DNA from: Notolepis coatsorum
Taxonomy: Eukaryota > Chordata > Actinopteri > Aulopiformes > Paralepididae
Direction of reading: 5' to 3'
DNA: 64,000 nucleotides
NCBI GenBank assembly: GCA_963971535.1
Contig: OZ020589.1
Location: forward strand, 90,332,683 to 90,396,682
Shown: positions 23,401 to 61,690 of the stretch, piece by piece
How the letters are laid out: every line of letters begins with the position of its first letter
Position numbering within the stretch: position 1 is the first letter of the stretch
The notes under the pieces: model-generated
Told to the model about the DNA's origin: nothing
The model's input: only the letters and a program-made list of their open reading frames with translations
The model's database searches: none
Position numbers and translations under genes: made by a program

Positions 23401-23882
23401 TGAAATGGAAATACTTCGGCAGGGTTAGATTTGAAACTATACTCCCCGTCTGCCACGTTGATTTGTAGCCCACTGAGAGAAATGAAGTCCAACCCCAGGA
23501 CAACTCCAAAAGCCAGGCCTCTCTGATCCAGCACGACTATTGGTAAGGTGAAGAGTTTCCCGTGAAGGTCGATTTCCAGCTTCCCCCAACCAAGTGGAAC
23601 TTGTGCCTGTCCATTAGCAAGATACAAAGGTCCATCTTCCCAGGGAGTAAGCTCTTCTTTGGCTCTGTTGAGCTCCGCCCATAGATACTCATTGAGAAGG
23701 GTGTAACTTGCACCTGTATCCAAGACAGCCTTTCCCCGCCAGGCTCCCAGAGTGATGGGTACCACCAATAGGGTAGGTGGGCCACAAGGAGAACTTGGTT
23801 TTGAAGTACTCAGAGAGAGGTTCTCCACGGAAGGTTGTGCTGACTTGTCACGTCGTTTTGAGGTGACAGCTGTGGACACCAA
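20499..23882 (-). CDS. pol: Gypsy Pol: protease, reverse transcriptase, RNase H, integrase
   Basis: 1127 codons, open throughout. VLDTGASYTLL (about residue 53) is the aspartic protease site. RT runs about 240-480 with YLDDIIVYS near 402; one conserved position reads FVLKNAP instead of the usual FGLKNAP. RNase H follows with YTDASDTGLGAIL and TDHSALQWVL. Integrase has VDIMGPF (about 823), LSDRGSQF (about 885) and TERVNRT (about 920), the D,D,E residues. Residues about 763-800 (21480-21595), the HHCC zinc-binding part, read as non-family sequence, whereas the neighbouring frame reads as family. Two compensating indels are likely. The frame lies -1 relative to gag and overlaps it, as in many gypsy elements; the annotated start (TTG) is only a frame edge. 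No chromodomain. Confidence 0.9.
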   Translation of the reverse strand: MVSTAVTSKRRDKSAQPSVENLSLSTSKPSSPCGPPTLLVVPITLGAWRGKAVLDTGASYTLLNEYLWAELNRAKEELTPWEDGPLYLANGQAQVPLGWGKLEIDLHGKLFTLPIVVLDQRGLAFGVVLGLDFISLSGLQINVADGEYSFKSNPAEVFPFQPGSANGPRKEKRHYPRKLCLISALPPPVLTLEPVRLDAKEYIHNAVTQAQLQDDEKEQLRGILESYPKVCTNEAGRTDVLLPKIYPTTNVPIKQRPYRMSPGKQAIVEEQLKDMLSVGIIEPSYSGWASPVVLPPKKDGGHRFCVDFRRVNAVTETDAYPLPNINEILESLSGSVIFSTIDLNSGYWQVPMDPESKSKTAFITSRGLYHFNVMPFVLKNAPATFQRLMETVLRDLRGHICLVYLDDIIVYSTSVTEHFQHLQQVIERLAKANLTINLKKSKFCLQEIKFLGHIVSAKGVCADPDKVEAIRTYPVPKNIKEVQRFLGFAGWYHRFVPGFSKIAEPINDLKKKGRPFIWSPECQNAFNKLRECLSSPPILGHPNPDHPFLVYTDASDTGLGAILTQKKEGGTEEVLAYASRTLNRAESNYSATEKECLAIIWALEKWQHYLEPQLFTVITDHSALQWVLRSTKTTSRLIRWALRLQRFDFIIEYRKGKLNSAPDALSRIPTGAGCNLYSGKKDSGTLPISLAQIWEEQHKDAKIETIFKALAEEGSSVKNEYAVLEDKVYRKTQGQDGQCHYRVYVPATLIPQVLQAYHENPLCGHGGIFKPTRGFRKWHSGQECGPMSRHMLNAVCQSLKSDNRKPAGMIQQHSVKGPNELLGVDIMGPFPRSPEQHEYLLVLVDYFTKWVEFFPMRQANSQTIARILKKEIFTRWGVPDFILSDRGSQFVSSLFKELCEKWTVTPKLTTAYHPQTNITERVNRTLKCMISSYVEDNHRKWDQYLPEFRFALNSAVQETTGVTPAELQLGRKLNSPMDKVLRGKTLPPDAQAYDVVHQLKTLHAKAEESSKKARVRQLRNYNKNRRDVSFKFQERVWVRNFPQSSAAKNFTAKLASKWKGPYRVIKQTGPVNYQVVREDTGGDVRTVHVCNLKPFYPTAEDLDEQERKDVLEILNEDSSEDEFLGFE

Positions 23883-32657: not shown

Positions 32658-35631
32658 TCTCTTGGGCGGGGTTCTTGGCTAAGCGCCGCTCCGTGTTCAG
32701 CAGGTACCGTTCTGTGGCGTCTGTCTTGGCGTGGAAAGTAGGCATTCCTTCTCGCCGCAGGAGTGGCGTGGCGTATCTCAACACGCCGTTGACCGGGACT
32801 CTCTTGGTCCCTGTCTCGAGGAGGTGAATGGCGTAAATGTCATCTTTAGAGCGAATGTCTTTCCTTCCGTTCTTAAAGGGCATTTGTTCCAAGGTCCATA
32901 ACCGCTCTACGTGTTGCAGGAGTGCGGTTTCTCCCTCTGTGACTCGGGAGTGGGGACATCTAGTGGCTGTACTTCGGTTGAGAGATTTGGCGAGCGGGCC
33001 TTGGAGAGTCCATCCCAAACGGGTCTCGACTGCTGCAGGACAGCCTCGGGGTCCGGTATGAACCCGGTCTATCGGGACAATGAGGTCTGCATGGTCGGAG
33101 CCTATCAACAGGGTCGGCATAGCATTGTCTATGAGCGGGATCGGTAACTTGCGCAGATGTGCATATTTCTCCATCAGCTTGGCGACGGGGTATGTGTACC
33201 GCGACAGTCCTATTTCTTGGCTGGTGAAAGCGTCTGTAATCTGGTACCGTCGCTCAGGCTGGCCGCTTGCTGCGATAGAGAATGAGACATTCTCGCCCTT
33301 TATCGTCTTCAAATCTCGTCTTATTGTCCGAATTGTCATTTGGGTTTCGCTTCCCCGCAGCCCTAGCTGGGCCGCAGCGGAGGCGAGCAGAAGGGTCTTC
33401 TCTGACCCGTCATCGAGGACGGCGTAAGTGTCCAGGACTTTATTCTGGTAGCTTAGTGTCACACGCACTACTTTTAGGAGTACTCGGGCTCCACTGCTGC
33501 TGGCGGGATCGATGTACATGACGCTCGCTTTGCTGCTGGATGGTGCGGGTGAAGGGCGCCGTCTGTTACTGTCGTGAAGTATGTCCAGATGGGCTCCATC
33601 GCACTTGGTGCACCTTTTCTTTAAGCGGCATTCGGCTGCCATGTGTGAGCGCGCACAGCGAAAACAGCGCTTGTTGGACTTTATCCATTGACTTGCTTCC
33701 TCCGCGTTCAGCTTGGGGAAGGAGTCACATTGCGCTAGCCAGTGTTCTTTCTCACAGTAGGGGCACACTATCTTCCACTTCTCCGTTCTGGAGGGGGTAC
33801 TGTGGCTCCTGCTGCTCGGTACTGACTCCGATTGGTGCATCACAGTCACCGATCTTCTTCCATCATTTAGTCGTCTGGTTCCTTCTCTGGAGCCAGGGGT
33901 GCTCCGTCCGAATGTATCTAGCCGTAGGCTGCTGACTTCTCTCGCCAGGAAGTCTGCTAGATCGAGGAGGTTCGGTTCGGGGCCATTCGGGTCTCGGTGG
34001 TCTCTCTGCCGCCTAAAACGCTCCTGTCGAGCGGGCGGCAGCTTCTCCAAGATCCTTTCCACATTTGAGTTGGCGTAAAGTTCATGCCTCCCCTTCTCTC
34101 TCTGCGCTCCCAACATCCCTACCAGGGACTGCACTCTGATGGACAGGTCGTCCAGTGCTCGATTGTCTATTGCTGGGGGTAAGCGGTCGATGTGTCGGAT
34201 CTCCTGGATCACGTAATCCCATATGCGCCCATACCTCTGGTCCAATGCTACCAGCGCTGCTGTGTATGGGGTGGTGGAAGTCGCGTAGGCGAGCGCTATA
34301 TTATGTGCGCGGGGTACCTTTAAGTGCTTCAGTAGGATGGCGTATTTATGGCGTTCATCCAATACATCCACCAACATGGTCTCCAGACACATGCGGAGTT
34401 CTGTATACTGGGCCCGGTTCTCTTGGGTGAAGTCGGGTACCATAGGCGTGCCAATGTATGACGCTGACTGTGGATACATCGGCGAGCGTTGGGGGAGAGG
34501 CCTCCTAGGCGAGTCTCCTCCCGCTCCTTGGTATGGGCTGGTACCGGCAGTGTACCATGGCCCGCTTGTCCAGGTGCTGTTCCTCGGTGCGGGTCGTGCG
34601 TCGTGCTCACCCGTGTATAGAGTCGGGGGTCTGTAGCGCAGCTCCGCGGGAGTATAGCCTGGGCTGTACCGGACCTCCTGGTCCGGTAGAGTACTGTGCT
34701 GTCGTCGGGCGTGGTTCTCCTCCTCTTCGTCTTCAGTTAGGTCATCCAGTGCTTGTAGTCTCTGGTTTAGCCTCTCCACAGGATATGCTGCTCCTTCCCG
34801 GTTGCTAGGTCTCGCTTGGACCGGTGGGGGGAGGTGGTCTGTGGGGGGTATAGACCTCGTCTGTTGGTCAAGTTCAGGGTTGTTTACTCGGCTAGGGGAT
34901 GCCGCCCTGGAGGTGTGTCTAGACGAGTTCCTGGAGCCTCTGGCGGAGGGAGAGGGTGTTGTCCGTCTGATCAGCTGTTCTATTAGTTGCGCTTGCTGTC
35001 TGTCGCGCTCTGCGTCCCGTAGAGCACCAGCAGCTGCTCGCTGGCTGTCTGCTCGGTCTCGGGCCACATTCTCTTCCCTCTGAATGCGTCTTATTTCTAG
35101 ACGTATATGTTCTTCTTCGCTCCGCTGCTGGATCTGCAGTCGGTCGCGTTCAGCAGCGGCGTTCAGGCTGATGAGGAAGGCCTGCTGTAGGGTCCTCTCT
35201 GCCTCGCTGGGAGAAGGCGGTTGTATAGGGGAGCCTTCCCTCGGGGTACTCCTTGCGGAGCCTTGGAGCTCTATCTCCACGGTGCTCTCCCCGTCTTCTT
35301 CCGTGCCGAGTTCTCTCTCGGTAGCGTTGTATTCCTCCCGGGACTCATCGGGGACTACTTCTTCAGTACTGGCGGGGTGTGAAGTCATGTCTGGTTCCCA
35401 CTGGTCCCCACCGTGAACTTGGTCAGTTACATTAGAACCCGTAGGGGCCTCTATGGTCGGGGTAGTCTGGGCGTTGGGGTTAGACATACTTTTACTTTCT
35501 AGTTTTACCGCGTTTACTGTTAGTAGAAGACTAGGTTGTTGACTGACAGCGTAAGCCTCTAAGTACTGAGGGAGCCGTCGTTCGCGCTGCGGGCGTTGGT
35601 TAGGAGGATCGTTTCGTGGAGTGTTCATCAT
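32578..35631 (-). CDS. gag: BEL Gag-protease polyprotein fragment
   Basis: Starts at tandem ATGs (35631/35628; MMNTPRND) and stays open for about 1017 codons. The N-terminal half is acidic and Pro-rich, then strongly coiled coil (EEEHIRLEIRRIQREENVAR). A BEL capsid-like region follows (AQYTELRMCLETMLVDVLD, YAILLKHLKVPRAHNIALAY). Two zinc knuckles lie near residue 650 (CFRCARSHMAAEC, CTKCDGAHLDILH). The BEL-type protease lies near 735, with VLDDGSEKTLLLASAAAQLGL and DLIVPIDRVHTGPRGCPAAVETRLGWTLQGP. The end (YRAEIEKLITAGHVTKMD) is the linker into RT, where the frame breaks. It would make virus-like particle proteins but no functional pol fusion. Confidence 0.85.
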   Translation of the reverse strand: MMNTPRNDPPNQRPQRERRLPQYLEAYAVSQQPSLLLTVNAVKLESKSMSNPNAQTTPTIEAPTGSNVTDQVHGGDQWEPDMTSHPASTEEVVPDESREEYNATERELGTEEDGESTVEIELQGSARSTPREGSPIQPPSPSEAERTLQQAFLISLNAAAERDRLQIQQRSEEEHIRLEIRRIQREENVARDRADSQRAAAGALRDAERDRQQAQLIEQLIRRTTPSPSARGSRNSSRHTSRAASPSRVNNPELDQQTRSIPPTDHLPPPVQARPSNREGAAYPVERLNQRLQALDDLTEDEEEENHARRQHSTLPDQEVRYSPGYTPAELRYRPPTLYTGEHDARPAPRNSTWTSGPWYTAGTSPYQGAGGDSPRRPLPQRSPMYPQSASYIGTPMVPDFTQENRAQYTELRMCLETMLVDVLDERHKYAILLKHLKVPRAHNIALAYATSTTPYTAALVALDQRYGRIWDYVIQEIRHIDRLPPAIDNRALDDLSIRVQSLVGMLGAQREKGRHELYANSNVERILEKLPPARQERFRRQRDHRDPNGPEPNLLDLADFLAREVSSLRLDTFGRSTPGSREGTRRLNDGRRSVTVMHQSESVPSSRSHSTPSRTEKWKIVCPYCEKEHWLAQCDSFPKLNAEEASQWIKSNKRCFRCARSHMAAECRLKKRCTKCDGAHLDILHDSNRRRPSPAPSSSKASVMYIDPASSSGARVLLKVVRVTLSYQNKVLDTYAVLDDGSEKTLLLASAAAQLGLRGSETQMTIRTIRRDLKTIKGENVSFSIAASGQPERRYQITDAFTSQEIGLSRYTYPVAKLMEKYAHLRKLPIPLIDNAMPTLLIGSDHADLIVPIDRVHTGPRGCPAAVETRLGWTLQGPLAKSLNRSTATRCPHSRVTEGETALLQHVERLWTLEQMPFKNGRKDIRSKDDIYAIHLLETGTKRVPVNGVLRYATPLLRREGMPTFHAKTDATERYLLNTERRLAKNPAQESVYRAEIEKLITAGHVTKMDIKDGQR

Positions 35632-35680
35632 AGGCCATTTCAATATTAATAACACTATATTAATATTACACTAATTACCC

Positions 35681-38020: not shown

Positions 38021-41000
38021 CTATGTCACCCTTTCATATGATGCTGTCCGGAACATTAGTTCCATCCATTCTTTAAAAGTAATATCAACGGGTGATTTCC
38101 AATGTCGTAATGCAATTCTACATCCTGATATCATGGCCATTCTATACCACATTCCCCGGTATTTAGGCAGTTTAATCCCTTTCGGTACTATACCCAAAAC
38201 ACATGCCATTGGGGAGTTATTTATCTTCACATTCAGAACCTTACTTAGGAATATCACAATTTGATCCCACATTTTACGGACCTTCTCACATTCGTATAGC
38301 ATATGTAGTAAAGTGCCTGTCTCCTTCTCACATCTCCAGCAGATGTCACTGTCCCTTAATTTTAGTCTGGCCAGTTTACTAGGCGTCCAATAGCTTCTGT
38401 TCAACACTTTGTAAAAGATAAGTTGTGATTGTGCCTCCCGAGAGAATTTACCCCATTTGGACACCAGCTTCTCCCACATTTCCTCAGTAATATCCTCACG
38501 TACATCGTTCTCCCAGCTCAGCCTCAGACCCGCCAACTTGGGTGCATTGTATTCTCTTATAACATCATAGAATCTTGACGCACCGCCTTTCCTACGCCAT
38601 CCTTTATCAAATATTTCTTGAATTGCAGTAATCGGGCCACACTTTGGCCCTCCCATTGATGACGATATACAATGTCTAATCTGTAGGAATTTATAGAAGT
38701 TTTTATTATCTATACCAAAGTCCTCTTTAATATCCTCAAAAGGTAAAACCCCATCTTCCCCGGCTATATCACCTAGTACATGTATCCCCCTTTTAATCCA
38801 GTCGTCCCATATGACTGATTTCTTACCAATCTTTAATTTTTTATTATACCATATAGAGGCTCTTGTAGTTAGATATGGGCTATCACCAGTCAGCCTGTGC
38901 GACTGATTCCAAGTTTCCCTGACAAATGTCATTAGAGGGTTCTTAAAAGGTATAGGTCTGTCTGATTGTGTCAGGAAGGATTCCAGAGATGAGGGATATA
39001 ACATTTCCTCCTCCATCTTGACCCAAGCAGGTGCCTCCTCAGTCGAGTGATTCAATTTGGAGAGCGAGAACGCATAGTGATACCAGTCTAGTTTAGGCAG
39101 GGATAAGCCGCCATTTTCCTTTGCTGAATACATTTTGGCCCGTCCAAATAGCGGCCTTTTTAAGATAAGATAAGATATTCCTTTATTTCCCCCCCACAGA
39201 TATACATTAATGACTTTGTCATATTGTTTGAGTAACTGGGTCGGGAGCATATATAGGATATAATTTAATTTGGGAGCCAATATCATTTTTACTAAGTACT
39301 TTTTTTTACATTTTTACTATCTTCCCCAGGAGGGACATATTCATCTTGGCCCAATTCTGGGTCAGAGCACTAATGTGTTCGATTATAGGGGCAATATTGG
39401 CTTGCACTATCTCTTTCAGACCTGGGATCAGCTTTATTCCTAGGTATATCAACCCTGACGGCATCCATCTGTACTGCCAGCCCCTCCTGATAGCAGGGGG
39501 ACAACATTTAGAGAGAGGCATTGTGACTTCTCCAGTTGATTGTGTATCCAGATATTTCGGAGAAGGACTCGATAATAGTTCCAATGACCCCAGCTGCTGT
39601 TTGGGGATTGCTGGATAACAATAAGATATCGTCCGCATATAAAAATAATTTATGTTCCACCTGCCCCGCTATTACCCCTTTGATGTCTTGATTAGTCCTT
39701 AGTGCGATAGCAAGTGGTTCGAGGAAGAGCGCAAACATTTGGGGAGAAAGCGGAGAACCTTGCCTCGTCCCTCGCCCTAGATTAAAGGGCGAGGATACGA
39801 TCCCGTTGGTCAAGACTGAGGCCATCATATTTGTGTATAACAACTTTACCCACCCAGTAAACGATGGTCCGAACCCGAAGCGCTCTAGCGTGTGAAATAA
39901 GAATGCAAATTCCACCTTATCAAAGGCCTTTTCGGCGTCCAATGAGAAGGCCACTGTAGGTTCTGTATCATCCCTAACCTTCCACATTATGTGTAGGAGT
40001 CTGCGGATATTATCAGCTGAGTTTCTCCCCTTCACAAAACCCACTTGATCTGAGTGCACCAAAGTTGGTAGTACATCTTCTATTCTATTCGCTAGTATCT
40101 TTGCCAATACTTTTTCTTCCAAATTGCTCAGGGATATAGGCCTATAGTTTCCACAGTATTGAGGGTCTTTGCCCTTTTTCTGTAGTAACGTAATAGTGGC
40201 CGATCTCAAGCTAGTGGGCAATCCCCCTTTTAACAGTGAATCTTGATATACTTTCAATAGTCTCGGAGCGATTATATCACTGAATTGTTTGTAGAAATCG
40301 GGAGTAAACCCATCGTCTCCTGGTGCTTTACCCAATTTAAGGCTGTTGATTGCCGCGTGTATTTCCTCTATCGAGAATTTTGTCGAAGAACGCGTCCAGT
40401 TTTACCTGATCCACCGCCGTCTGTGGGGTATATAAATCCTGGTAAAAGCACCTGAAAACATTATTAATTTCCTTTTTGTCTGTAATAATTTTGTCATCCT
40501 TATTACGAATTGAGGATATAATATTTTTATTTTGCATTTGTTTAACCCGATTCGCTAGTATTTTACCCGCTCTCTCCCCTTGTTCATAGTACTTTGGTTG
40601 GTCCTAAATAACGCATATTCGGCCTTCTTTTGATATATGTTGTTCAATTCATATTTGGATTTGTTCAGGTTTCTCCACGTTTCTGGGTCTGGTCTCTGAC
40701 TGTGCTGTTTCGAGAGTGTTTTAATTTCCTCGTCCAATGCTGTCATTTTTTGTTTCTCTGCCCTTTTTAGTATTGCACTGTATTGTATGAGTCGCCCTCT
40801 CATGTAAGCTTTACATGTGTCCCACATTATGCCACTATCATCTATTGACCCTTCATTAAGTTCCCAGAATTCCTTAAATATAGTTCTAATGTATGCACAC
40901 GACCCTTCATCATTTAACATCAGGTTATTGAATCGCCATCTCAGAGATCGTTGCCCTTCCTCCATGGATGTGATCACTAAATCAACCGGAGCATGGTCAG

Positions 41001-41624
41001 ATATTACAATGCTCCCTATCCCAGTATCTGCTATTTGTTCTACCAGTGCGCTAGAGATCAGGAAATAGTCTATTCTAGAGTATGAGGAATGCGGGTGAGA
41101 GTAAAACGTGTAGTCTCTTTCCTGTGGGTTCATAACCCTCCAAATATCCACTAGACCCAATTCCTCTACCAGTACACCAACCGCCAGTCTCCTTGCGTTG
41201 TCAGCGGTCCTGGGTTGATATGATTTGTCCAGCAAGGTGTTTCCAACCAGGTTGAAGTCCCCCCCTATGATTACGTTGCTATTCCCTATTTTCCTGATCA
41301 CCTCACATACTTCATGGAAAAAGTCTGAGGACGACCCGTTGGGCGCATATATTTATTAGCTAAGGTAGTCCTCTGCCCCTCCAAATCAGCATCCAGTATA
41401 ACCCATCTTCCCTCATCATGTGAGAAACTATTGTGCACCTTAACGTCTATGTTTTTTCTCACCAATATTGCCACCCCCCTCTTCCTAGAAGAGAACGTAC
41501 TATAGAATATTTGTCCCACCCAATCCCTCTTAAGCTTGGCCGACTCCTCCTCATTCAGGTGCGATTCCTGAATTAGTGCAATATCCGTCATCGTCGCCAT
41601 CTTTTCCTCCCGTTGCGTCGCCAT
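38021..41624 (-). pseudogene. L1-like ORF2, at least five frame breaks
   Basis: Pieces in consecutive frames, read 5' to 3' on the minus strand, follow ORF2 order. Endonuclease: 41624-41298 (IALIQESHLNEEE) and 41301-40555 (VIIGGDFNLVGN, YSRIDYFLIS, VISDHAPV). Linker: 40537-40337. Reverse transcriptase: 40335-39508 (NYRPISLSN, SDQVGFVKGRNSADNIRRL, SLDAEKAFDKVE, TRQGSPLSPQMFALFLEPLA, YADDILLLS). Then 39638-39306, and the C-terminal region 39286-38021 (YWTPSKLARLKL, CWRCEKETGTLLHMLYEC). The frame changes at each junction. Catalytic motifs survive but the protein cannot be made, so this is an old copy compared with the intact ORF2 at 7799. Confidence 0.85.
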
Positions 41625-41815: not shown

Positions 41816-42084
41816 TAATGTAGACCTTTTTAATAATAATTGTAAGGGTCCACCTGTTCTAGGACCCTCCCCTCCTGTCTGTACTCCTCAACTGCCCCCA
41901 CCTTTGCACATACTCTTCCATGGACTTCCTCCACACATGAACAGTTGTGTCAAGTTCTTAGACAGTGCTCTACTGCCATCAGGTGGCCTACTTCAGTTTG
42001 TGCATCTCTGTTTTTCTGTAGTCTTTGATCTCCTGAATATCATGACTAATCTGCTATCTGTTTTCTGTGTTGTAATTATGATCT
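41816..42084. other. Non-coding flank
   Basis: Begins with the right copy of the L1 target duplication. No gene recognised. Confidence 0.4.
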
Positions 42085-42092
42085 GTCTAGTG

Positions 42093-42426
42093 TAGGGATG
42101 TTCAATATTGGCGCTTTTACAGATACCGATATACCGATATTGTCCAACTCTTAATTTCCGATACCGATATCAACCGATACTGATATATGCAGGGTCCCCC
42201 CCCCCCCAAAAAACAGAATCATTTCAGGTCATTAACATTACATATCTCTTGTTGTGGAATTAACACAACATTATGCATACTTTTGACAATAAATCAAATC
42301 TGAATTTGTTCTTACTTGCTTGCCTGGGTAAATAAAGGTTAAATAAATGTTTAAAATAAAATAGATCATTTCCGATATCACATTTTAATGCCAATATCTG
42401 TAGGCTGATAATATCGGACATCCCTA
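42093..42426. mobile_element. Small non-autonomous hAT element
   Basis: Termini TAGGGATGTTC and GGACATCCCTA are imperfect inverted repeats. A perfect 8-bp duplication GTCTAGTG lies at 42085-42092 and 42427-42434, as hAT transposases make. The interior is rich in CCGATAT repeats with a C-run near 42198. No coding capacity. Confidence 0.85.
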
Positions 42427-42576
42427 GTCTAGTGTTGTCTCAGTGTATTTTTTATTCAGTCTGTTGTTTCCAGTCTAGTCCAGTGTCCCGGTTTGTGTCT
42501 TGATATCCTTGTTAGTCCTTAGTGTGTGTTCCCCAGCTGTCTCTCATTATTAATCAGCCTCTGTATATATTCGTCT

Positions 42577-42619
42577 GGGCAATATGACGTCACAGTGATT
42601 TAGCGCGGCCATCTTTGTG
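42577..42619 (+). promoter_or_regulatory. Left inverted end with CRE and YY1-like sites
   Basis: Contains a perfect CRE palindrome TGACGTCA (42585-42592) and GCGGCCATCTTTG (YY1-like) about 110 bp before the transposase ATG. It probably serves both as transposase binding site and as promoter. Confidence 0.5.
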
Positions 42620-42729
42620 TCCTGTATTGTGTCCGACAGGTGAATGAGGAGAGAGGTACTCCTGCGCGCCACAACTAGAGAAGAGAAGTTGCGCGAAACA
42701 CAACTAAAGTTCATACAACTTCATACAAT

Positions 42730-45700
42730 ATGCCCGGGATATGTTGTGCAGTTGGCTGTAACAACAGTCGTCAGAGAAACCCCGAACTACAATTGTATTC
42801 CATCCCAAAGGAGTTAGATCGGCGCAATAAATGGTTGGCTTCAATCAGAAGGGACCACTGGCAGCCAACATCTAATTCTAGATTGTGCAGTCAACACTTC
42901 GTATCCGGTAAATTTACGTTTGCTTTGCCCTCAACGTATAGTTTCAAGTTTCAAGTTTCTTTAATAGTTGTCATACAGAAGTACAGAATACTTTTGTACA
43001 AAATGCTTCTTACTGTTGCGCTCCAGAGACTGTGCAAGACAAGATAAGTATGAAATAAAAACATAGTAAAATTAGAAGTAAAAAAAGAGGTCACAGTGTT
43101 CAGTTTAGACATATGTACAATGTTCGATGCAGAATAGACGTAGTTACCATACAATACTGTGCAGTGTACTAATATACAATACTATATAGTGCAAGGCAGA
43201 AATGGAGAAATGGGACGAGGTGCAATTTAGGTACAATTCACAGTAGGTGTACGAGTTGTAGTGCAAATCCTTTATCAATAAATATAAAGTGTAAGTGTGT
43301 TTGTGTGATCTAAAGTGTGGAGAGTGGGTGCTGCAGTGTGTTGTTTGTTTGAGTGAGTGTGTGCGTGTGGGTGTGTGTGCTGTGTGCATTTGATGGTTGT
43401 TGCATAGTGATTATTGTTCGTTTAGCGATTATTGTTCGTTTAGCAGCCTGATGGCCTGGGGATAGAAGCTTCTTCTGAGTCTTTCTGTGCTCGCCTTAAG
43501 ACTCCGGTATCGCTTGCCTGACCGCAGCAGTTCAAAGAGGCAGTTGTTCGGGTGGCTCGAGTCCTTAATAATTCTCTTAGCCTTCCCCTTGCACCGCTTG
43601 ATGTAAATGTTCTGGAGGGTGGGAAGCCCCCCTCCAATTGTGCGTTCGGCTGAACGTGTCACTCTTTGTAGTCTGCTACGGTCTTGTGCAGTGCTATTCC
43701 CAAACCAGGAGGTGATGTTGCCGGTCAGGATGCTCTCTATTGTACATGAGTAGAAGTTCCTAAGGATCTTCTGACTGACTTGGAACTTCCTTAGGCGCCT
43801 GAGGAAGTAGAGGCGTTGTCGTGCCTTCTTCACAACACTGTCAATGTGTGTGGTCCATGTCAAGTCCTCGGATATGTGGGCTCCGAGGTACTTGAAACTG
43901 TTCACTCTCTCAACCGGTGCCCCGTCGATGCTGAGGGGGCTGTAGTCCTTGACCCCCGACCTCCTGAAGTCCACAATCATCTCTTTTGTTTTGCTGACGT
44001 TCAGGGAGAGGCAGTTCTCCTGACACCACTGTGACAGGTTCTCTACCTCTTCCAGGTAGGCCCTTTCGTCGTTGGCAGAGATCAGGCCCACCACTACTGT
44101 GTCATCAGCAAATTTGATGATGGTGTTGTTGTTCCGCTGTGCTACGCAGTCATGTGTGTACAGGGAGTAGAGGAGGGGGCTCAGAACACAGCCCTGGGGG
44201 GCCCCTATGTTGAGCGTGATGGATGAGGAGGTGCAGTTGCCGGCTCTTACCACCTGGGGTCTGCCCGTCAGGAAGTCCAAGACCCACTGTCACAGGTCAT
44301 AGTTCAAGCCCAGGTCCCTGAGCTTGGCTATGAGTTTGGAGGGGACTATGGTATTGAATGCTGAGCTGTAGTCGATGAACAGCATTCTCACATAGTTCCC
44401 CTGCCTCTTGTCCAGATGTGATGCTGCTGTGTGCAGCACATGGGCTATGGCGTCCTCCGTGGACCTGTTGGGGCGATATGCAAATTGCAGAGGGTCCAGG
44501 TTGATGGGGAGGGAGGAACAGATGTAGCCCTTCACTAGCTTCTCAAAGCACTTCATGGCTATGGAGGTGAGGGCTACAGGGCGGTAGTCGTTGAGGCAAG
44601 CGGGCGTAGATTTTTTGGGTACAGGGATGATGGTGGACTTCTTCAGACAGGTGGGGATGACAGCCTGTTCCAAGGACAGGTTGAAGATGTCAGTGAATAC
44701 CGGGGCCAGTTGGTCGGCACAGACTTTTAGGACGCGGCCGGGGATGCCGTCCGGTCCTGCTGCCTTCCTGATATTCACTTTTTTAAAGATCCGTCTCACC
44801 TCATGCTCTGTTACCCTGAACACTGAGTCTCCATCAGCAGACCCCCCCCCCCCCATTGCCGTGGTTTGTAGGCTGGTGTTGTTATTCACAGCCTCAAACC
44901 TCGCATAGAAGGAATTGAGATCATTTGCTAAGGAGATGTCACTGTTCAGTTTGAGGGGGGTTCCTTTGTAGTCTGTCATTGTTCTGAGGCCCTGCCACAT
45001 GCCTCTAGAGTCAGCCTGTTCAAACTGAAGTTCAACTTTATCCCTGTAACGCCGTTTTGCCTCTATTACTGCTCTCCTGACGTTGTATCTTGCCATCTTG
45101 TGTTCTTCCATGTTGCCTGTCACCAGCCCGGTGTTGTATGCTGATGTGCGCACTTTCAGAGCCTCACGGACGGATTTGTCTACCCAGGGCTTTTGATTTG
45201 GGTAGATTTTAATTTTGGTGGAGGGGATTGTTTCTTCTACCTGAGTACAGACATAGTCAATCACCGTTTCGGTGTATTCGTTAATATTGGCTGTGTTATC
45301 ACGGAATACACTCCAGTCTGTACTTCCCAGTACAGCTTGGAGTGACTCCTCTGACGTCACGGCCCAACGCTTAACCTCTCGCGAGACCACCGGAGTTCGC
45401 TTGAGACTTTGTTTGTACTTTGGCAAAAGAAATATTGCAGCGTGATCGCTTTTACCGAATGGACTAAGAGCCTGTGACTTGTACCCATTCTTAAATTGCG
45501 AGTATACATGGTCTAATATGTTCTCGCCTCTGGTGGGACAGGTCACATGCTGATAGAAATTCGGCAGCACCTTTTTAAGACGCGCGCTGTTAAAATCACC
45601 CAGAACCAAAATGGCGGCGTCAACATTAGCTGCCTGGAGTTTGTTTACCTCGTCGTGAAGTTTTGAAAGTGCGATCCCAGTGTTCGCGTGTGGTGGAATG

Positions 45701-48084
45701 TACACTCCGATGAGGATGATGGACGTTAACTCTCTTGGGAGGAAGAAGGGTCGACATTTTATCGTGATAAACTCCAGGTCTGGGGAGCAGTGGTTAGACA
45801 GTTCCTTTGTGTTGCCTAAATCGCACCACTCCTCGTTTATCATGAAGGCAATGCCGCCTCCTCTCGTCTTTAGTGACTCTTCTGCCGTCTGGTCCTTGCG
45901 GAGAACGAAGAAGTGGTCTGCCGGTTCTATTGCGTGATTCGGGACATCTGGACTCAGCCAAGTTTCTGTGAAACAGAGGACGTTACAATCCTGAATGTCC
46001 CTCTGGAATTGGATCCGTGCTCTGATGTCATCCAGTTTATTTCCTATCGATTGCACATTGGCCAACAATATGCTGGGCAATGTGGTTCTGTGTCGTTTGG
46101 ACCTCAGTCTGTTTCGGACCCCCGCTCTCTTTCCACGTCTTCGCGGCGGTTTCTCCTCCTGGTCTTGGCCATGATAACAAAGGATCTCGGCGGGCCATTT
46201 CTGCTGTTCAGCGATCCGATCCAGAGAGCAATCCAAACGGTAAGTTTTCCTTAATCCAATGTCAATGATTGACTGACGGTCATACACATATAATGCACCA
46301 ACAGTTGGTGCAAATAAAACTCCTAATACTATAAAAATTAACAAAAGAAAGCACAGTCTCGACGGAGCGATCAGAAAGGCAGCCATCAGAGCAGCGCCAG
46401 TTCAGAGAGATAATAAGTATCTAACGTTAATTATTATTTTAATCTTTTAGCTCAGGGAAACACTTGAAACACTTAAACATAATTAACGTTAGCAGTGTCG
46501 TCCAAACACATAATGCTAATTTGAGATAGATTCAGACTGTGTAGTGGTTAGATTTATTACACTAATCACATACCTAGCTACTTGTCAAAAAGGAAACTGT
46601 TATTAAACCCAGTTGTAAAGCTACTCTTACTTACCTCTGCACTTAATTAAATATACAGTACAATATACTGCAGTATATATGTGAATAAGAGAGAACAAAT
46701 TCTGAGAAAAAGATGGTCAATATTTTGATGGTATGCACTATGCACACATTTAATAGTCTACCATTCTTGTCTCTCTGTCTGCTTAGGCAGAAAAAGTGAG
46801 AACCCCATGAGTCCTGATTATGTACCAAGCCTGTTTGCACACACTTCAGCTGGACAAAGGCAGAAAACCATCTATGCCAACAGTAGGTTTGAGCATACCC
46901 AGCAGATGAAACGGAAAAGGACTGAGACAATGGCCCCTAGCAGTGATGACCATGAGACTGTGGCCCCCTCCAGCACCAGCGATGACACTGAGCATGACAA
47001 CACCATGCAAGTACGGGCAGAATGCATGAAGGATGAGCACAATTACTCCCAAGCCATTCATAGCCCAGGCATCGTGGGACCATGCTCGAATGCAGCCTGC
47101 CAAGCTACAGTCAAGGCATTGACAAATGAGTGTGCACGACTTAGGGCAGAGGTTCATCGTCTAAAAGACAACGTTGATGAGCTGTCTTTGAATGAAGAGG
47201 CCTTTAAAGGAAATGATGACATGGTACTGGAACTCACAGGCCTTCCAAGCTATGCTAAATTAATGGTTGTCTTTACTTTCCTGTCAGGATTTCTGAAACC
47301 TAGTCCAAGACTGACTCCCTTTCATAGCTTTCTGTTAACACTGATGAGAATGAGGCTTAATTTACCTCTATATTTTTTTGTCTATTTATTTCGTATGTCT
47401 AAGACAAGTGTTGGCAGAATATTTAATAGTACATTAGATGTAATGTATGTTAGAATGTCACCACTTATCTTTTGGCCATCAAAAGAACAAATTCAGGTCA
47501 GTCTGCCCATGTGTTTCAGGGATAATTTTAAAAACTGCACCTCTATCATTGACTGTTTTGAAATATTCATAGAGAAGCCAAAAAACTTGAGAGCTCGTGC
47601 ACAAACATACTCTCAGTACAAGCATCACAACACTGTAAAATTCTTGATTTCAATAACACCGCAAGGTGTTATATCCTTTGTGTCAAATGGCTGGGGTGGA
47701 CGCACAAGCGACAAGCACATCACAGAAAACTGTGGTTATCTTGAGAAAATATCACCAGGAGATGTCATTCTTGCAGATAGAGGCTTCAATGTCAAAGATA
47801 CGGTAGGCCTGTATTGTGCACAGTTGAAAATCCCAGCATTCACCAGAGGCAAGCAGCAACTGCACCCCCTGGAACTAGAAGCAACAAGGGGACTTGCTGC
47901 CGTTAGGATCCATGTGGAAAGAGTCATTGGCCTGGTCAGGAACAAATATACCATCCTTCAGACCACCATCCCACTGTCGCTCTGCCAAACAGCCGCTCAA
48001 GGACAACCTACCTCCATTGACAAGATGGTAACAGTTTGCTGTGCTCTTTGTAATATTTGCCCATCTGTGGTGCCCACAGAATAG
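42730..48084 (+). CDS. THAP-DDE_4 transposase, two exons (42730-42907, 46787-48084)
   Basis: Exon 1 starts at ATG 42730 and encodes the first 59 codons of a THAP zinc finger: C-x4-C in CCAVGCNNS, then W and C-x2-H in LCSQHF. A donor GG|GTAAAT follows 42907. The acceptor TGCTTAG ends at 46786. The join is phase 1 and completes the THAP domain exactly ([16 protein letters not shown]). The predicted protein is 491 aa. A coiled coil lies about 173-195 ([18 protein letters not shown]), a helix-turn-helix (HTH_Tnp_4-like) about 215-300, and a DDE_Tnp_4 catalytic core about 300-480. The core has [12 protein letters not shown] (D, about 315), ILADRGFNV (D, about 388) and [13 protein letters not shown] (E, about 434). 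It would bind the inverted ends and cut and paste the element. No stop or frameshift is seen. Confidence 0.85.
43040..43428 (-). other. 3' UTR of the intronic LINE
   Basis: Non-coding, with GTG-rich low-complexity sequence (43340-43390) and a short duplicated GATTATTGTTCGTTTAGC (43410-43443). Confidence 0.5.
43429..46386 (-). pseudogene. CR1/L2-like LINE ORF2 with a single nonsense codon
   Basis: 985 codons in one frame from ATG 46386 to 43429, broken only by TGA at 44290-44292 ([19 protein letters not shown]; family members have a Cys-like codon there). A hydrophobic N-terminal segment and a basic [10 protein letters not shown] linker come first. The APE endonuclease follows ([42 protein letters not shown]). 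RT motifs: [52 protein letters not shown] and FADDTVVVG. The C-terminal [15 protein letters not shown] and [11 protein letters not shown] blocks complete it. One substitution would have disabled it, so the insertion is recent. It lies wholly inside an intron, antisense to the transposase. Confidence 0.85.
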
Positions 48085-48149
48085 ACAGGCAGTAGTTGCT
48101 TACCATGTGAAATGGATCTATTACTGACTGCACTTAGCAAACAGGCAAA

Positions 48150-48277
48150 TAAAAGTAATTTAGTTTAAAGTACAATCTTGGCTGTCTTTTTCTCTCAACG
48201 CTTTAATAGGTAGATCTTGCCTTCACCAAAAAAAAAAAAGTGATCTTGGGCTTAAAAAGGTTGGTGACCACTGATCT
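48150..48277 (-). mobile_element. hAT-like terminal fragment
   Basis: AAAAAGGTTGGTGACCACTG (48258-48277), with upstream AAGTGATCTTGGGC and an A-run, resembles the end of a common fish hAT family whose terminus reads CAGTGGTCACCAACC on the minus strand. The other end and target duplication were not found, so this is a remnant. Confidence 0.45.
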
Positions 48278-48312
48278 ACGGTATTTGAATATATATGATT
48301 CAGTGATGTCAG

Positions 48313-48663
48313 ATGAATGTGTACACATTACACAAATACATGACCAAAAGACAGAATAGTTTCTTTCAGAATTTATTTGACCTTACTCCTAGAACCCACC
48401 TCACCCCTGCCCATTTTGACAACCTAGGATGGCTTAGAGTAGACGACAAAGTACAGCAACTTGCAATGGGCCTGGTCTACAAGATACACTACACGACCAA
48501 TGTACATCGACCAATGTACATGTTCAATCAATCAATCAATAAACTAGATGAATTAGAATTAAATAACACGTTACATCGATTTTTCTATGGCTGTATATGG
48601 AATAATGTATGGAATATCAGCCATTCTAGGGTGAACCCGACTCTGTGGTATCGACTCAATTAA
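48313..48663 (+). pseudogene. Possible LINE ORF2 C-terminal fragment
   Basis: The open frame includes RTHLTPAHFDNLGWLRVDDK and VQQLAMGLVYKIHY. These resemble the C-terminal region downstream of RT in several fish CR1/Rex1-like LINEs (pattern H-x5-LGWL-V--R). There is no catalytic part and no clear limit. Weak assignment. Confidence 0.35.
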
Positions 48664-48714
48664 CTTGTTGAAACCTGCAGATACCCGAAGGGCCTATGTT
48701 ATTATCTGTGGAGC

Positions 48715-51604
48715 TTATTTCTTGTTTGTTTGCTTCTTGCACTCTAAACATTTCCAAGTCTTTGGTACCCTGCTCAGCTTCAGACAAGACTTGTGGAAGT
48801 GTTTTCGCTTACATTGCTCAGATGTGCAAGAGAGGAGGTTGTCTGTGTCACCAGTAGGTTTACCACAGTAACATCCCATTACTGTCTCCTCAGAGGTTGC
48901 AGTGGCTGAGAGGCGTGGCACAGTAAACCATTTACCCAACAGCTCTGGTAGTATCCCTGTTCTAATGAAGTCAACCACCTTCAAATACCCATTATCAAAA
49001 AATTTGCCATCAAACGGGATACGCTGTATAAAAAGTTCTTGAGGTGTCCACACCACAAAATCACAGTATGTTACCTCTGCTACACGCATTTGGGCCTGCA
49101 CTTGATACATGTAACTGTGATCTAGCTTTAGGCTCATCAAACCTTCCTCAGTGACAGTCAAGCAGAACCGTGAGTCTTTGGCACATTCATTTAGAGTGCG
49201 GCCTTTTGCACTGAAAGGACACTTAATCTCTAACATGCCAGGCTCATGGCAAGCACAGGTCACCACGCCATCTGGTGATGCACCCATCCATGGCAGCTCT
49301 GGATTGATGATAAGCCCAGATGCTGCAACGGTGAGGTCTGCATGGCGATCTTGCATCGTCATCAGGTACGACTCTCTGGCAGTGTCCTCGTTTTCTAGAC
49401 CCCATCTGATGAAGATAATGCAAAAGTGAGCCATGTTATTTTGAACATTTGAGAACAACTCCAGACTAGGACCTAAACAAAACAGTGAGGTTCTAACCTG
49501 AGAACACCTGACTGTGGTGAAATGTATTTATTTATTAATTTTTCATCATTAAGCCTTGTGTTTAATTATTTAATTATTGTTTTCATAAGTAAGTGTAATA
49601 AACTGAATCATTCGAAGAGATGTTCATTATTGCAAAATAAACACCAACAGGGTATGGCTCTCTTTACATTATCCCAAACATACTGTAATTAGAATGTTAA
49701 CATTTTGTTTTCCCCACCTAATATATAGTTTCTCAATCCAGTTCTCAATTTTATTTATTCATGATAAAGTAGTGAAAAAAAGGCATGATTTCATATTGCT
49801 TAAAATTATATATATATATATATATACCTGGTCGCTTCAGTCGAAAACTGAGAGGAGCGAGGATAACAAACTCTCTTAATCAAAGATAGAGATTTCTTTG
49901 TCCTGGCTGCCTCATGGAACGACGATGCAGTAACTCTTCCTGCTCTCTGATCAAACCACATCCTCGACTTTCTCTGTTGCCGGGTCTTCTCCTCAACTAA
50001 CAAACACTAAAAAAAGAATTCAACTATCAAAACAGCTGTAATTATCACAAAGGAATTAAGCTATTCTTAATGAATTTGGTGATGTTTATATATTGGGATT
50101 GTGACATTCTTGTTTTAACGAGCCATTCTCATTTCTTACCTGCTCTGGTGTGAGATGCAGCTCATCAAAGATCATGGCACCCTCCTCCAGCAGTGCGGGC
50201 AAATCCATTTCAAGCCTGGTGCTTGCATACAGTGTTGACAGAGGTGTTGGCAGATCCAACTGTACAGTCGTGGGCATGTATCTGAGGGAATGGCCTTCGA
50301 TGACTGACAGGATCGCACTTTTCTTGGGCTTTGCCTCTTGGTCCTCACTTTGGTGGAGCTGTTCACAGAAGAACTTTAACTCATCAGCAGATGGTCTCAT
50401 GTGCTGCAAATAGTCTTTTTCACCTTGCTCTTGGTTAGCAAAGATGTTAGACAACTCAGCATACTCAACTTTTTTCGTGCTTGGCTTGGTCCATGCACAT
50501 GGCTTCTCGGTGCATGTCTGTCCTTCTCTCTTGTCAACAGCAGCCAAAACTGTGAACATCAGTGCAGCAGCGTGGGAACACACCTCGCCCAACCCAGCCA
50601 TACATGTGCAATGTGCCATCACCACTGTCCCTTCCTCCTGCACAACTATCCATGGACATGTTGCCTTTGTGTTCAGAGCCTGGGAATGATTCACCTGTTA
50701 AGTGAAAAATGTGAACGTTAATATACAGTCAAAGCTAAACTCCCCTGAGCTTAAGAAGCCCCAAATGTTAGCTGGGCCATACACAGAAAGCAATAACTTT
50801 TTTAAACAAATAAATAGTGGTTAATTAACTTAGACCTGCCAGTAAAAAATAAATATAGCCTAGAGAACTTTGTATTATTAGAAAACAGAATAAAATATTA
50901 AACTGCCTAATTGATTGATACGTTTATTAACAGATTGCAGAATGGGTACAGTACAGCTAAATACACACAATTGTTAAGGGGATGCAGACCAGAGAAAGAC
51001 TTTCGTCTTGTTTACATCAGGGTCCCCCATTTTCAATTCATCATTTTCACCCCATCATCAATTCACCTAAACTGCAACTGTTAACAAAATTGTTCAAATA
51101 CATAACGATATAATACTTGAACTCGTGTGGTAACGTTAGTCTAACGTTATTGTTTTAAAGACTAGTAAGGCTTAACGTTCTGGCAGTCAACATGGAAAGT
51201 CGCATAACTACTCTCTATAACATTAGCACTCTAGACTTAACGTTAACCACCACCAAAATAACACGGTTGATAATGGTTGTTGAATTACTTACACGTCCTG
51301 TGATTACATATATATTTTTGGTCTCCAGATGCCATATCTTGGTGTCGTTCACCCATCCTGCAACGGAATATTGATAAGCATCGGTGCTCTTGAAAGCCTT
51401 CAGGGTCTCTCCGGTGAATGGGGATGGATTATGTACAAGATAGATGTAGATGTCGGGAAAAGTAAGTTGGGGCAGACGTTCCGCTGATTTTAAGGGACAA
51501 AATAAAGTTGAAGGTAATAAATATGGATCACAACCAATAATCGACGTCTTCTCCAAATATCGCTGTCTTTCGCTCTCATTAAGATGTGCTGTGTTGACTG
51601 CCAT
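48715..51604 (-). CDS. SWIM / YqaJ-nuclease / PHD protein of ISL2EU, four exons
   Basis: Exons on the minus strand: 51604-51293, 50694-50140, 50006-49828 and 49405-48715. Donors are CGT|GTAAGT, CAG|GTAAGA and CCAG|GTATAT; each acceptor ends in AG. Phases 0, 0 and 2 all join cleanly, giving 578 aa. Exon 1 holds the conserved N-terminal region ([18 protein letters not shown]). Exon 2 holds a SWIM zinc finger, [17 protein letters not shown] (C-x-C...C-x-H). Exons 3-4 carry the YqaJ/lambda-exonuclease-like nuclease: [35 protein letters not shown] (D), LEIKCP (E-x-K) and YMYQVQAQM. The C-terminus is a PHD-like finger, [16 protein letters not shown]...FHKSCLKL...WKCLEC. It probably processes DNA during transposition, but the role is not established. 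Confidence 0.85.
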
Positions 51605-51632
51605 GATGGTCAATGTCGCTAAAAAAGTAGGT

Positions 51633-51678
51633 CACAAAGATGGCGGCTGGCATTCCGGAAGTGACGTCTTCGGTACCC
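51633..51678 (-). promoter_or_regulatory. Right inverted end with CRE-like and YY1-like sites
   Basis: AAGATGGCGGC (51637-51647) is a close YY1 match and TGACGTCT (51662-51669) is a CRE half-variant. They lie 30-75 bp upstream of the nuclease ATG (51604), in mirror position to those at the left end. Confidence 0.5.
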
Positions 51679-52281
51679 ATGAATACCTGTGAGCTGTGAG
51701 TTCCTTGTATTCCCTGTGGCGTCATTTAGTTTCCTGCCTTGCTCTGTGTGTTTTGTTCTCCCCATGGTCTATTCCTGCCGTTTGCGGAATAGAGTTCTTG
51801 TTTATCGTGTTGCTCCCTGTGTATCCTGGTTCACTCGCCTGGTAACGTTTTTGCACTGTGCGCCTTACCCAGCTTATCTGTGTTTTTGTTTTCTAGTTTC
51901 TCAGTTTAGTGTCGCTACTGTTTTGCTTTCTTTATTTTGAAGTGTCTCTCCTGCGAGTATTTGCAGCACCGACGTGTTATTGTTTTGTAAGTTTTTGGAA
52001 ACTTGTTCTCGCACCTTGCTTTTCATTTACCAAGTAACTCGAATTAAAGGAGCAGTGCTCATATTCGAGAATCTACCTCTCCTCGTCTCTGTTTTGCGTT
52101 TGGGTCCTCTGCCAACACAATCCCTAACAATAATAATTAAACAAATCTATTCCTCATTTCGGAACTGCCTGAAGGACATGCATTGGCTTATTCCCCCCCC
52201 CCCCCCCCCCCCCCCTCCACCATGAACATTACTGGTGTGTTGAGTATACTTCTGAGCTCATGTCTATGTTGTTACTGTAAC
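51679..52281. other. Right flank of ISL2EU and left arm of an inverted duplication
   Basis: 51679-52130 has no recognised gene. 52139-52281 (ATCTATTCCTCATTTCGGAA ... GTTACTGTAAC, with a C-run at 52193-52215) recurs inverted at 54229-54365. Confidence 0.6.
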
Positions 52282-52960
52282 CAGTGTTGTAGGACCCGAG
52301 GTACTGGACTGATTTTCAGGACTCGTGACTCGACTTGGACTTGAGCACTGATGACTCGGACTTGGACTCTAGCATTGACTGCATTCAGACTTTTATGTAA
52401 TAGGCCCTATCATTTGGCATAAGATATTGATGGCTAGTGCATTTGTTTGGCTATTGTGTCACAAAGTAAATGAACTCCCTTTGAAACGGTGACCGCTGTG
52501 TCATTTATGTTTAATGTATAGACCTTTTTTTATTTGTATGTCCGCTCTTTGAGTGGAGTGAACCTTGATGACTTGGACTCAGACTAGGGTAATGGGGACT
52601 CAACTCAGGCTCTTCTTTGGTGACTCGGACTCGAACACTGGGGCCTCGAGACTTGACTCAAGATTTTAATTTAAATCTTTTACCCAGGGACCGTGCACAT
52701 TAATCAACATCTTCAGTTTCCACATCAATGTAAATTTGCCAGAATTAGCTAATGAGCTAGTTTTCACCTACCAGGCATGTCTTTATGGTGTGGGAGGAAA
52801 CCAGAGTACCTGGAGGAAACTCACACAAACACAGGGAGAACATGCAAACTCCACACAGAAAGGCCCCCTACTGGGGTTCTAACCCAGGACCTTCTTGCTG
52901 TGAGGCAGCAGTGCTAACCACTGTGCCACCCTACTATTTAGTGACTCGACTACAACACTG
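52282..52960. mobile_element. hAT MITE, inverted-duplicated copy, interrupted by a SINE
   Basis: Ends are perfect inverted repeats CAGTGTTGTAG / CTACAACACTG. The interior is GACTCGGACTTGG-type repeats matching 53758-54228 in opposite orientation. A SINE-like insertion occupies about 52665-52935. The flanking 8-mers differ (ACTGTAAC and CTCTATAC), unlike the other copy, so the right flank may have been rearranged. Confidence 0.8.
52665..52935 (-). mobile_element. tRNA-derived SINE-like repeat
   Basis: On the minus strand GGTGGCACAGTGGTTAGCACTG (A-box-like) is followed by CTCACAGCAAGAAGG and GGGTTAGAACCCC (B-box-like). This is the head of a repeat family common in fish, whose tail contains GTTTGCATGTTCTCCCTG and GTTTCCTCC. 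It has no intact tRNA fold, so it is not a tRNA gene. Edges are approximate. Confidence 0.65.
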
Positions 52961-59258: not shown

Positions 59259-60164
59259 CACATCCTGCGCCATTCACGTCGTACGACGGGTTTCAAGTTC
59301 ATGCAAATTCTGCCAATAACGGCGTACGACGTGTTTCAAGTTCATATTTCATATTTTCGTCATGGTATTCATATTTCACTCACGGAGCCTTGTCATATGC
59401 TGCGGGAGCCATCACAACTCTGCAACGCTTCAATACTGCCACCTGGTGGCTGATCGGCAAGTTGCAACCGGAAGTGGATCTCTTGTGATACCGGTGCGTC
59501 TCCCTATTCCGTCCGGCCACTCGTTTATCGTCCCTGGACTCAAGACACACACCGTGGATATGAATCTTTGCCATAACTCAATAATCCACATGATTTGGGC
59601 GTATATTAGTATTATACAAACCGGAACTGGATCTCATCGATCCACATCACATAAGTGAATTTCAGCGTTTTTCTTTATCATTTTCGATACAAACTGCTCT
59701 GATCTATATATCAACCATACTACATAAATCATTTAACGTCGGTCACGGAATTATAAACGACCCCCCCCCCCCCCCCCCCCCTCCGTTCACCCGCGGATGA
59801 TCAGTCATAACGCTTAGGACCATGTACAGTTGAAATTTTTTATATAACGTTGATCGTATCAAACGGCATTTGATAATCTAATATATGCATTTATGTCTAT
59901 ATCTCACGTTCTTGGAAATACTGCAGAAAACGATAAAAACATATTTATACTCTAGACGGTATTTTCGTATGAATGTGTGAATAAAAAGTAAAACGTTCCT
60001 ACATCCTGAACGATAGCTAATCGATGTTGAATGGGCCATAGTAATGTCAATTTAGCAATACAATTAAAAAAGTTATAGCCCTGCAAAGAAGGTGAACATC
60101 TCCATAGACTTACAGTACTGGCAGAGAATGGTTTAGGATGATCAAAGTGGTGGCAGAGAATGTG
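59259..60164. mobile_element. TTAA-flanked non-autonomous DNA transposon, copy 3
   Basis: TTAA at 59255-59258 and 60165-60168. Ends CACATCCTGCGCC versus CACATTCTCTGCC are imperfect inverted repeats. The interior matches 18141-19089 in reverse orientation. Joining the flanks at one TTAA restores the LINE codons on both sides. No transposase. Confidence 0.85.
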
Positions 60165-60965
60165 TTAACAGGCATAGTTCCCAGTATTTGTAAAATGGCC
60201 CATGTCTCTCCTTTGCATAAAGGTGGAGACAGAACTGACCTGAACAATTATCGTCCAATTTCCAAGTTGTCCTCCTTAGCTAAAATCCTGGAATCACTAG
60301 TGAATAACCAACTCAAAACATTTCTCTCTAATAACTCTATTCTAAGCCCCCATCAATCTGGTTTCAGAGCCAACCATAGTACAATCTCAGCCACCACTTT
60401 AATTATAAATTATATTGTTTATGCATTGGACAAAAATAAACATTGTGCTGCCCTATTTATAGATGTATCCAAAGCATTTGATACGGTTGATCATTCTCTT
60501 CTGTTGAATAGACTGCATAGTGACTGCATTGTTTGCGGTTGGTTCCAGAACTATTTATCAGGCAGAAACCAATGTGTGAAAGTGGGCAAAACCCAGTCAG
60601 AATGTTTGCCCATTACAAAAGGTGTTCCACAAGGATCGATCTTAGGCCCTGTTTTATTTACTATTTATATTAATGATATTATTCTGTCCTTGAAGGGCTG
60701 TCAAGCCCATTTATATGCGGATGACACAATTATCTATTGTACAGCAGATTCTGTACAATTAGCTACTGACAACTTACAACATGCATTTAATGCTCTGCAA
60801 GATAACCTTATAGGCCTTAAGCTTGTATTAAATGCAAGCAAAACTAAATTCATGGTGTTCTCCCGGGCCAGAAATATAGATCAAAATTATTTACCTATAT
60901 TGACTAGAAATGGGTCTGATATAGAAAGGGTAACTGAATATAAATATCTTGGAATCTGGCTTGAT

Positions 60966-61690
60966 CAGGGACGTGCACAGGACTTTAGAGGGGCAGGTGC
61001 TCAAAGGCTGAAAAGGGCACTACATACCTGTGAGTCTTTTAATCGAGCGCGCGTAGCGTGCAAGCCCGATTTTTAAGGGCCCTTTTCGGGCGGGAGGGCC
61101 CCCTTTTTATGCTTTTTGGGGGGTTTTGGTGATCAAATATTGAATATTGAACTATAATAATCAGTGCAGGAGCTCACTTATCCTTGAAAGACACTTTTAT
61201 CACTGACTTAAAAGGCGCATACATCTCCGTAAATGTTCAGGGGGGAGGGAATAAGTGCTTACCCTACAGACCCCAAGAAGTGCTGTATATTCTGTATTGT
61301 TTAATATAAATGCATTTTTTATTCCAATCCCGATTTGTATTTGAGATTCCCAAATCCCATCGGACTTGACTTCTTCGTGTCCCTCAATGAGTGTAATACC
61401 GGCATTCAACTGTATGCGCCACAGTGGTTTCTCTCATCATCATTAATCACCACCCATGCTATGCATAAAATATATAGGTCCGCGGAGAGGCACGCTGAGG
61501 AGGCCATGCAAACTGCAATGGAATATGGGGCATCTCTCTCTCTTTACCTAATATTTTGAATCTATCCTGACATTTTTCAGTTGGAAGGGCAGTCTATATG
61601 CATAACGCTAAAAGAAAATGGCACTTTTTTATGAGGCTCAAAAGGGCAGGTGCTCAAGCACCCCTTGGGCTCTATGTGTGCACATGCCTG
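60966..61690. mobile_element. Non-autonomous hAT element
   Basis: Ends CAGGGACGTGCACAG and CTGTGTGCACATGCCTG-type (imperfect inverted repeats). An 8-bp duplication GGCTTGAT / GGCTCGAT (one mismatch) lies at 60958-60965 and 61691-61698. It interrupts the LINE between IWLD and DTFLF. The GGGGCAGGTGCTCAA motif appears near both ends (about 60990 and 61640). No coding capacity. Confidence 0.8.

Follow-up and report, generated by a model that had tools for sequence, protein, structure and literature searches.

The 64,000-nucleotide stretch of Notolepis coatsorum DNA analysed here (hereafter the window) contains, at 42577–51678, a pair of convergent genes flanked by imperfect inverted ends, an element span of 9.1 kb with a nested LINE counted in (Table 1). 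Gene A encodes a transposase whose two exons join into a stop-free frame of 491 aa, with Pfam matches to THAP (E 7.5e-15), HTH_Tnp_4 (3.9e-12), and DDE_Tnp_4 (1.7e-54). In an alignment of 28 rows the catalytic D315 and E437 are invariant and D390 is nearly so. Gene B, a putative nuclease gene, joins four exons into a stop-free frame of 578 aa that matches YqaJ (1.3e-23) and Viral_alk_exo (2.6e-9), with D394, E408, and K410 invariant in a 21-row alignment. The introns of both genes run from GT to AG throughout and all junctions are in frame. The predicted splicing is further supported because the joined frames of both genes stay in register with their relatives in the alignments. An earlier note, made from the letters of this DNA alone, had described open and in-phase exons, a D,D,E transposase, and a nuclease with a D/E-x-K motif, and these descriptions are borne out by the joined frames and by the residues named above.

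Table 1. Positions of the genes, terminal repeats, and nested features of the element, in window coordinates.
Feature	Position	Strand	Content
Left terminal inverted repeat region	42577..42625	+	GGG end, GACGTCAC block (42586), GCGGCCATCTTTGTG block (42605)
Transposase exon 1	42730..42907	+	Most of THAP domain
Nested LINE frame	43429..46401	-	Endonuclease and reverse transcriptase in one frame, one in-frame stop
Transposase exon 2	46787..48084	+	End of THAP, HTH_Tnp_4 and DDE_Tnp_4; D315, D390, E437
Nuclease exon 4	48715..49405	-	YqaJ core (E355, D394, CxCH 399-402, E408-x-K410, QVQ) and ING-type PHD finger without aromatic cage
CxC[C/H] motif, nuclease residues C399, C401, H402	49246-49257	-	Between catalytic D and E
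Nuclease exon 3	49828..50006	-	YqaJ domain start; R310 aligned with lambda exonuclease R28
Nuclease exon 2	50140..50694	-	SWIM-type motif
Nuclease exon 1	51293..51604	-	Conserved N-terminal part
Right terminal inverted repeat region	51630..51678	-	CCC end, GACGTCAC block, GCCGCCATCTTTGTG block adjoining nuclease start codon

The matching inverted ends that the earlier note placed around the two genes are present, in imperfect form. The best strict local match between them is 17 of 19 positions, a value equalled in 1 of 5000 dinucleotide shuffles, and the score of a looser alignment was equalled in none of 5000. Strong end-to-end matching is limited to two blocks, GACGTCAC and GC[CG]GCCATCTTTGTG. 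Both termini start with GG (GGG at 42577, and GGG on the other strand at 51678), and the looser alignment also pairs a left TATTC with a right GAATA outside the GGG and CCC ends. The AT/AT target duplication reported for ISL2EU elements is not seen at 42577 and 51678, where the flanking dinucleotides are CT (42575–42576) and AT (51679–51680); a further AT pair lies slightly outside these ends, at 42569–70 and 51683–84. The terminal repeats probably double as promoters, since the start codon of the nuclease gene is situated about 30 bases inward of the right block.

The two matching blocks resemble what we take to be CRE and YY1 sites; an additional CCGGAAGTGACGTC at the right end is presumably an ETS site adjoining the CRE. 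Promoter-like motifs were noted at both ends (42577–42625 and 51630–51678), namely a CRE-like TGACGT and a YY1-like AAGATGGC, with CCGGAAGT also at the right end. Over both strands of the 64-kb window, TGACGTCA occurs four times, CCGGAAGT four times, and AAAGATGGC three times.

Intron 1 of the transposase gene is 3879 bases long and consists mostly of an antisense LINE with a frame of about 3.0 kb. This LINE is an insertion and no part of the transposon proper. Neither exact LINE borders nor a target duplication of at least 7 bases was found when 42900–42965 was compared with 46380–46560, and a short repeated stretch of the CTTGAAA type lies near the LINE 3' side, at about 42940. The description of the element as apparently intact thus holds for both coding frames; it left the LINE in intron 1 unmentioned, and it does not extend to the ends, which match in blocks and show no AT duplication at the termini given above. 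The element is a candidate for the autonomy proposed in the earlier note.

The element is a cut-and-paste DNA transposon of the ISL2EU group, coding-complete and interrupted in an intron by a LINE, and its overall layout is the published ISL2EU layout and so of an already known kind. Published ISL2EU coding capacity consists of a THAP/HTH/DDE transposase and a YqaJ protein (PMC4482050, PMC9179366), which agrees with the class proposed in the earlier note. The likeness to ISL2EU of the PHIS superfamily (Han et al., 2015, PMC4482050) extends to terminal inverted repeats starting with GG and to animal hosts, whereas the published mean length is about 4.8 kb as compared with 9.1 kb for the window element including the LINE, and the AT target duplication described for the group (target A|AT|T; PMC4482050) was not seen at 42577 and 51678. 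Earlier work found ISL2EU in teleosts and reported its expression in zebrafish, cod, and medaka (PMC9179366). The closest named relatives of both the transposase and the nuclease are from fish. One transposase relative (P0121, 427 residues, from a contig of 2145 bases) shares 96% identity across 87% of the query.

The pairing of the two genes recurs elsewhere. A contig of 3616 bases deposited as part of a Poribacteria MAG (JAAXGN010000095.1, hereafter L013) carries the same tail-to-tail pair, with the nuclease on the + strand (a relative matched at 57–2042, the last frame ending at 2054) and a DDE transposase frame on the - strand at 3615–2212, the two stops being about 157 bases apart. It was the one relative found among prokaryote genome contigs. 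Because its nuclease frame is broken into exon-like pieces, L013 is probably animal (sponge) DNA that was placed in a Poribacteria bin. Five of 117 transposase relatives sit on contigs exactly as long as those of some of 115 nuclease relatives, in a comparison that drew on the best 120 of 2155 transposase and the best 120 of 352 nuclease relatives, minus any that had no length; a control with every length offset by 1 to 10 in either direction gave 0 to 3 such coincidences. Distances between six transposase/nuclease pairs, the window's included, correlate with an r of 0.97 that was reached in 7 of 720 permutations and is probably driven in large part by one close pair (87% alike). With the tail-to-tail pair in L013, the five equal-length pairs, and the correlation of distances, we reject chance adjacency of the two genes. 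Among viral contigs, the nuclease alignment yielded 12 loci with other YqaJ proteins (23–44% identity), none of which was recognised as the element described here, and the transposase alignment gave no match.

The second protein is, as far as its sequence can tell, a nuclease of the lambda-exonuclease/alk-exo type, with predicted activity and polarity. Its YqaJ core aligns to the solved structures of LHK-Exo and lambda exonuclease, where window K410 falls on lambda exonuclease K131 and R310 on R28 (numbering corrected, by our own reckoning, for 2–3 extra residues in the structure chains), and the K131A crystal 3sm4 has an A at the position of K410. Of 56 relatives, near full-length sequences chosen from the best 120 of 352 nuclease relatives, 56, 56, 55, 56, and 55 retain the equivalents of R310, E355, D394, E408, and K410, respectively. 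In lambda exonuclease, R28 is key to binding of the 5'-phosphorylated end, and K131A or R28A leaves no exonuclease activity (PMC3118119, PMC5758106). An AF2 model of the nuclease relative P0014 (mean pLDDT 85.7, about 97–98 in the nuclease core) gives LHK-Exo as its best Foldseek match in the PDB (E 2.6e-10, TM by target 0.75), and its matches among viral structures are a pandoravirus YqaJ protein and the baculovirus alk-exo. The likeness to lambda exonuclease, LHK-Exo, and baculovirus alk-exo comprises the fold, as modelled for P0014, the D...E-x-K arrangement, and the equivalents of R28 and K131.

The window protein carries further parts that, to our knowledge, are absent from lambda exonuclease, LHK-Exo, and baculovirus alk-exo, namely a SWIM motif and a PHD finger. 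In the 21-row alignment, each Cys and His of the SWIM motif is either invariant or conserved to at least 90%; the label is based on the sequence motif and on the name "SWIM-type domain-containing" that several fish relatives carry in their source records, and the Pfam scan of the gene B product listed no SWIM family. The open literature, with subscription papers and Repbase outside its scope, yielded no description of SWIM or PHD parts of ISL2EU, and the available text of PMC4482050 makes no mention of them.

Between the catalytic D and E, the nuclease also carries a C-x-C-[C/H] motif that lambda exonuclease and LHK-Exo do not have in their aligned stretches; it is likewise absent from all 12 viral YqaJ loci. 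In the 56 aligned relatives its three positions are C in 56, C in 56, and C in 53 with H in the other 3. A looser count over 120 listed relatives found the A/S-S/T-P-D/N start in 114, of which 106 match onward through CxC to E-x-K/H-C. The 8 off-pattern sequences comprise one cut short, one false start match, three that keep CxC and fail elsewhere, and three that lack one cysteine, all three of the last from Antarctic fishes (Pogonophryne, Chaenocephalus). We can only guess that this motif might be a metal site.

The PHD finger of gene B scores 0.0025 in Pfam, below the model cut-off, and is backed by its sequence likeness to ING and YNG2 entries of the PDB, by the ING-like PHD zinc ligands of the window protein, and, for the fold of the relative P0014, by Foldseek matches of its model to ING PHD-H3K4me3 complexes. 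In ING2, Y215 is critical, and H3K4me3 reading strictly requires at least two aromatics (PMC3395697, PMC6534582). The positions corresponding to ING2 Y215 and W238 are G and H in the window copy, neither of them aromatic. Of the 120 listed proteins, 40 were dropped for want of a readable PHD; among the remaining 80 relatives, 55 have both cage aromatics, 8 have one, and 17, including Siphateles and Gadus, have neither. P0014 is one of the caged relatives. With the PHD excluded, a quick-method tree of 82 rows, drawn with a midpoint root and with L013 on a long branch, places the window together with two further cage-less fish copies at an SH-aLRT of 100. Neoarius, another PHD-bearing fish copy, has one cage aromatic, and the sea urchin and L013 rows, across the drawn midpoint root, have both. 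The "neither" state needs 8 changes on this tree, at least 4 of them on starred branches. We are inclined to read the pattern as loss of the cage rather than gain, since the ING fingers that this PHD resembles have it, while the counts themselves fit either direction. The histone-reading part is thus probably disabled in the window's fish clade.

Judging by its family, the THAP-DDE protein would bind the ends of the element, excise it, and join it to new sites. The nuclease would not be needed for the transfer itself, since Spy, reported as the sister clade of ISL2EU, is capable of transposition in human cells and the transposase is the single ORF of most Spy elements (PMC11304231, PMC9179366, PMC4482050). 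Spy has a related DDE transposase, and it differs from ISL2EU in being described without a target duplication and without a nuclease (PMC11304231, PMC9179366). Searches of the open literature returned no biochemical or genetic data on the role of the ISL2EU nuclease. As the best explanation of the whole, which we adopt tentatively and with somewhat less than even confidence, we propose that this coding-complete ISL2EU element uses its lambda-type nuclease for resection at the donor gap. From 5'-phosphorylated double-strand ends the enzyme would degrade DNA in the 5' to 3' direction, and acting at the empty donor site it would leave 3' tails; repair of the gap from a sister chromatid or homologue still carrying the element would then turn cut-and-paste into a net gain of copies. 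The PHD finger, and perhaps the SWIM motif, may recruit the nuclease to chromatin. The repair step would depend on host factors, since neither gene product is a Red-beta-type annealing protein.

A 5'-phosphate-dependent resecting enzyme seems best suited to a double-strand excision gap; points against this assignment are that the same nuclease residues would serve the trimming of ends equally well and that the expected AT duplication was not found at 42577 and 51678. The nuclease could act on the excised ends or insertion joints, trimming flaps or flanking bases there and thereby setting the 2-bp target duplication, a reading that lies near the view of the earlier note and that we consider unlikely. 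The catalytic residues conserved in the 56-relative set are in keeping with it, as is the fact that ISL2EU makes AT duplications and the mostly transposase-only Spy none, with the nuclease as the visible coding difference (PMC4482050, PMC9179366, PMC11304231). However, Harbinger, Nuwa, and Pangu elements likewise create duplications, and the available text of PMC4482050 reports no YqaJ protein there, while a processive exonuclease would probably be poorly suited to a trim of 2 bp. The kept equivalents of R28 and K131 and the lost PHD cage may refine the idea of trimming or resection, short of proof. Another possibility, to which we attach some weight while doubting it, is that the second protein is mainly a DNA- or chromatin-binding partner comparable to the Harbinger Myb-like protein, with SWIM and PHD guiding the transposase either to open chromatin or to the ends of the element and with a nuclease activity of secondary importance. 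The conservation of the SWIM residues and the retention of both cage aromatics in 55 of the 80 readable relatives speak for such a partner, but the window copy and 17 of the 80 relatives lack both aromatics, and the nuclease residues are nearly invariant in the 56-row set, including 11 of the 17 cage-less sequences, so that the catalytic residues are kept better than the cage.

The locus might also be an old immobile copy whose frames survive while its ends have decayed, so that nothing moves now, and the blockwise matching of the ends, the CT and AT flanks that form no duplication, and the LINE inside would all be expected of such a copy. This seems improbable to us, since neither multi-exon frame contains a stop or a frameshift and since P0121 is so close a transposase relative. 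A wider extension of donor-gap resection would be that ISL2EU carries a chromatin-guided 5'-3' exonuclease of the lambda type whose PHD reads H3K4me3 and which steers repair of the excision gap to homologous recombination in active chromatin, with copy gain as the result, some lineages including the window's fish clade having later lost histone reading and kept the nuclease. We regard this as speculative and unlikely to hold in full.

If it did hold, a chromatin-guided resection enzyme would parallel, independently, the combination of RAG1 and the RAG2 PHD. The likeness to RAG1-RAG2 and ProtoRAG is by analogy only, in the pairing of a DDE enzyme with a partner in which a PHD finger may occur; the proteins are unrelated, the RAG2 core is a beta-propeller and no nuclease, and amphioxus ProtoRAG is described without a PHD (PMC8355894). 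A further comparison is offered by KolobokE, also a DDD/E transposon with a lambda-exonuclease-like nuclease, in which the transposase belongs to another superfamily and the nuclease is encoded downstream of the transposase domain (PMC9587614). Should the nuclease bias donor repair towards restoring the element, two superfamilies, ISL2EU here and KolobokE in print, would seem to have acquired a recombination nuclease of phage or virus type for copy gain. The nuclease is the part worth following, with its conserved active site, its extra cysteine motif, and a histone-reader module seemingly lost in the fish clade. The two open genes, the named residues (R310, D394, E408, K410), and the contrast of kept and lost PHD cages make the question of donor-repair bias directly testable.

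In a self-comparison of 42000–52500 with the whole window, no second copy of the element or its nearer flanks was found, and, simple repeats aside, only 52125–52500 recurs, inverted, at 54377–53952. By eye, the flanks at 42440–42576 and 51679–52132 resemble the halves of one LTR-type repeat, divided by insertion of the element. The window (1–64000) is also, by eye, rich in retroelement-like frames, for example at 7787–11569 (+), 20499–23951 (-), 30663–35670 (-), 38021–41352 (-), and 60108–61076 (+).
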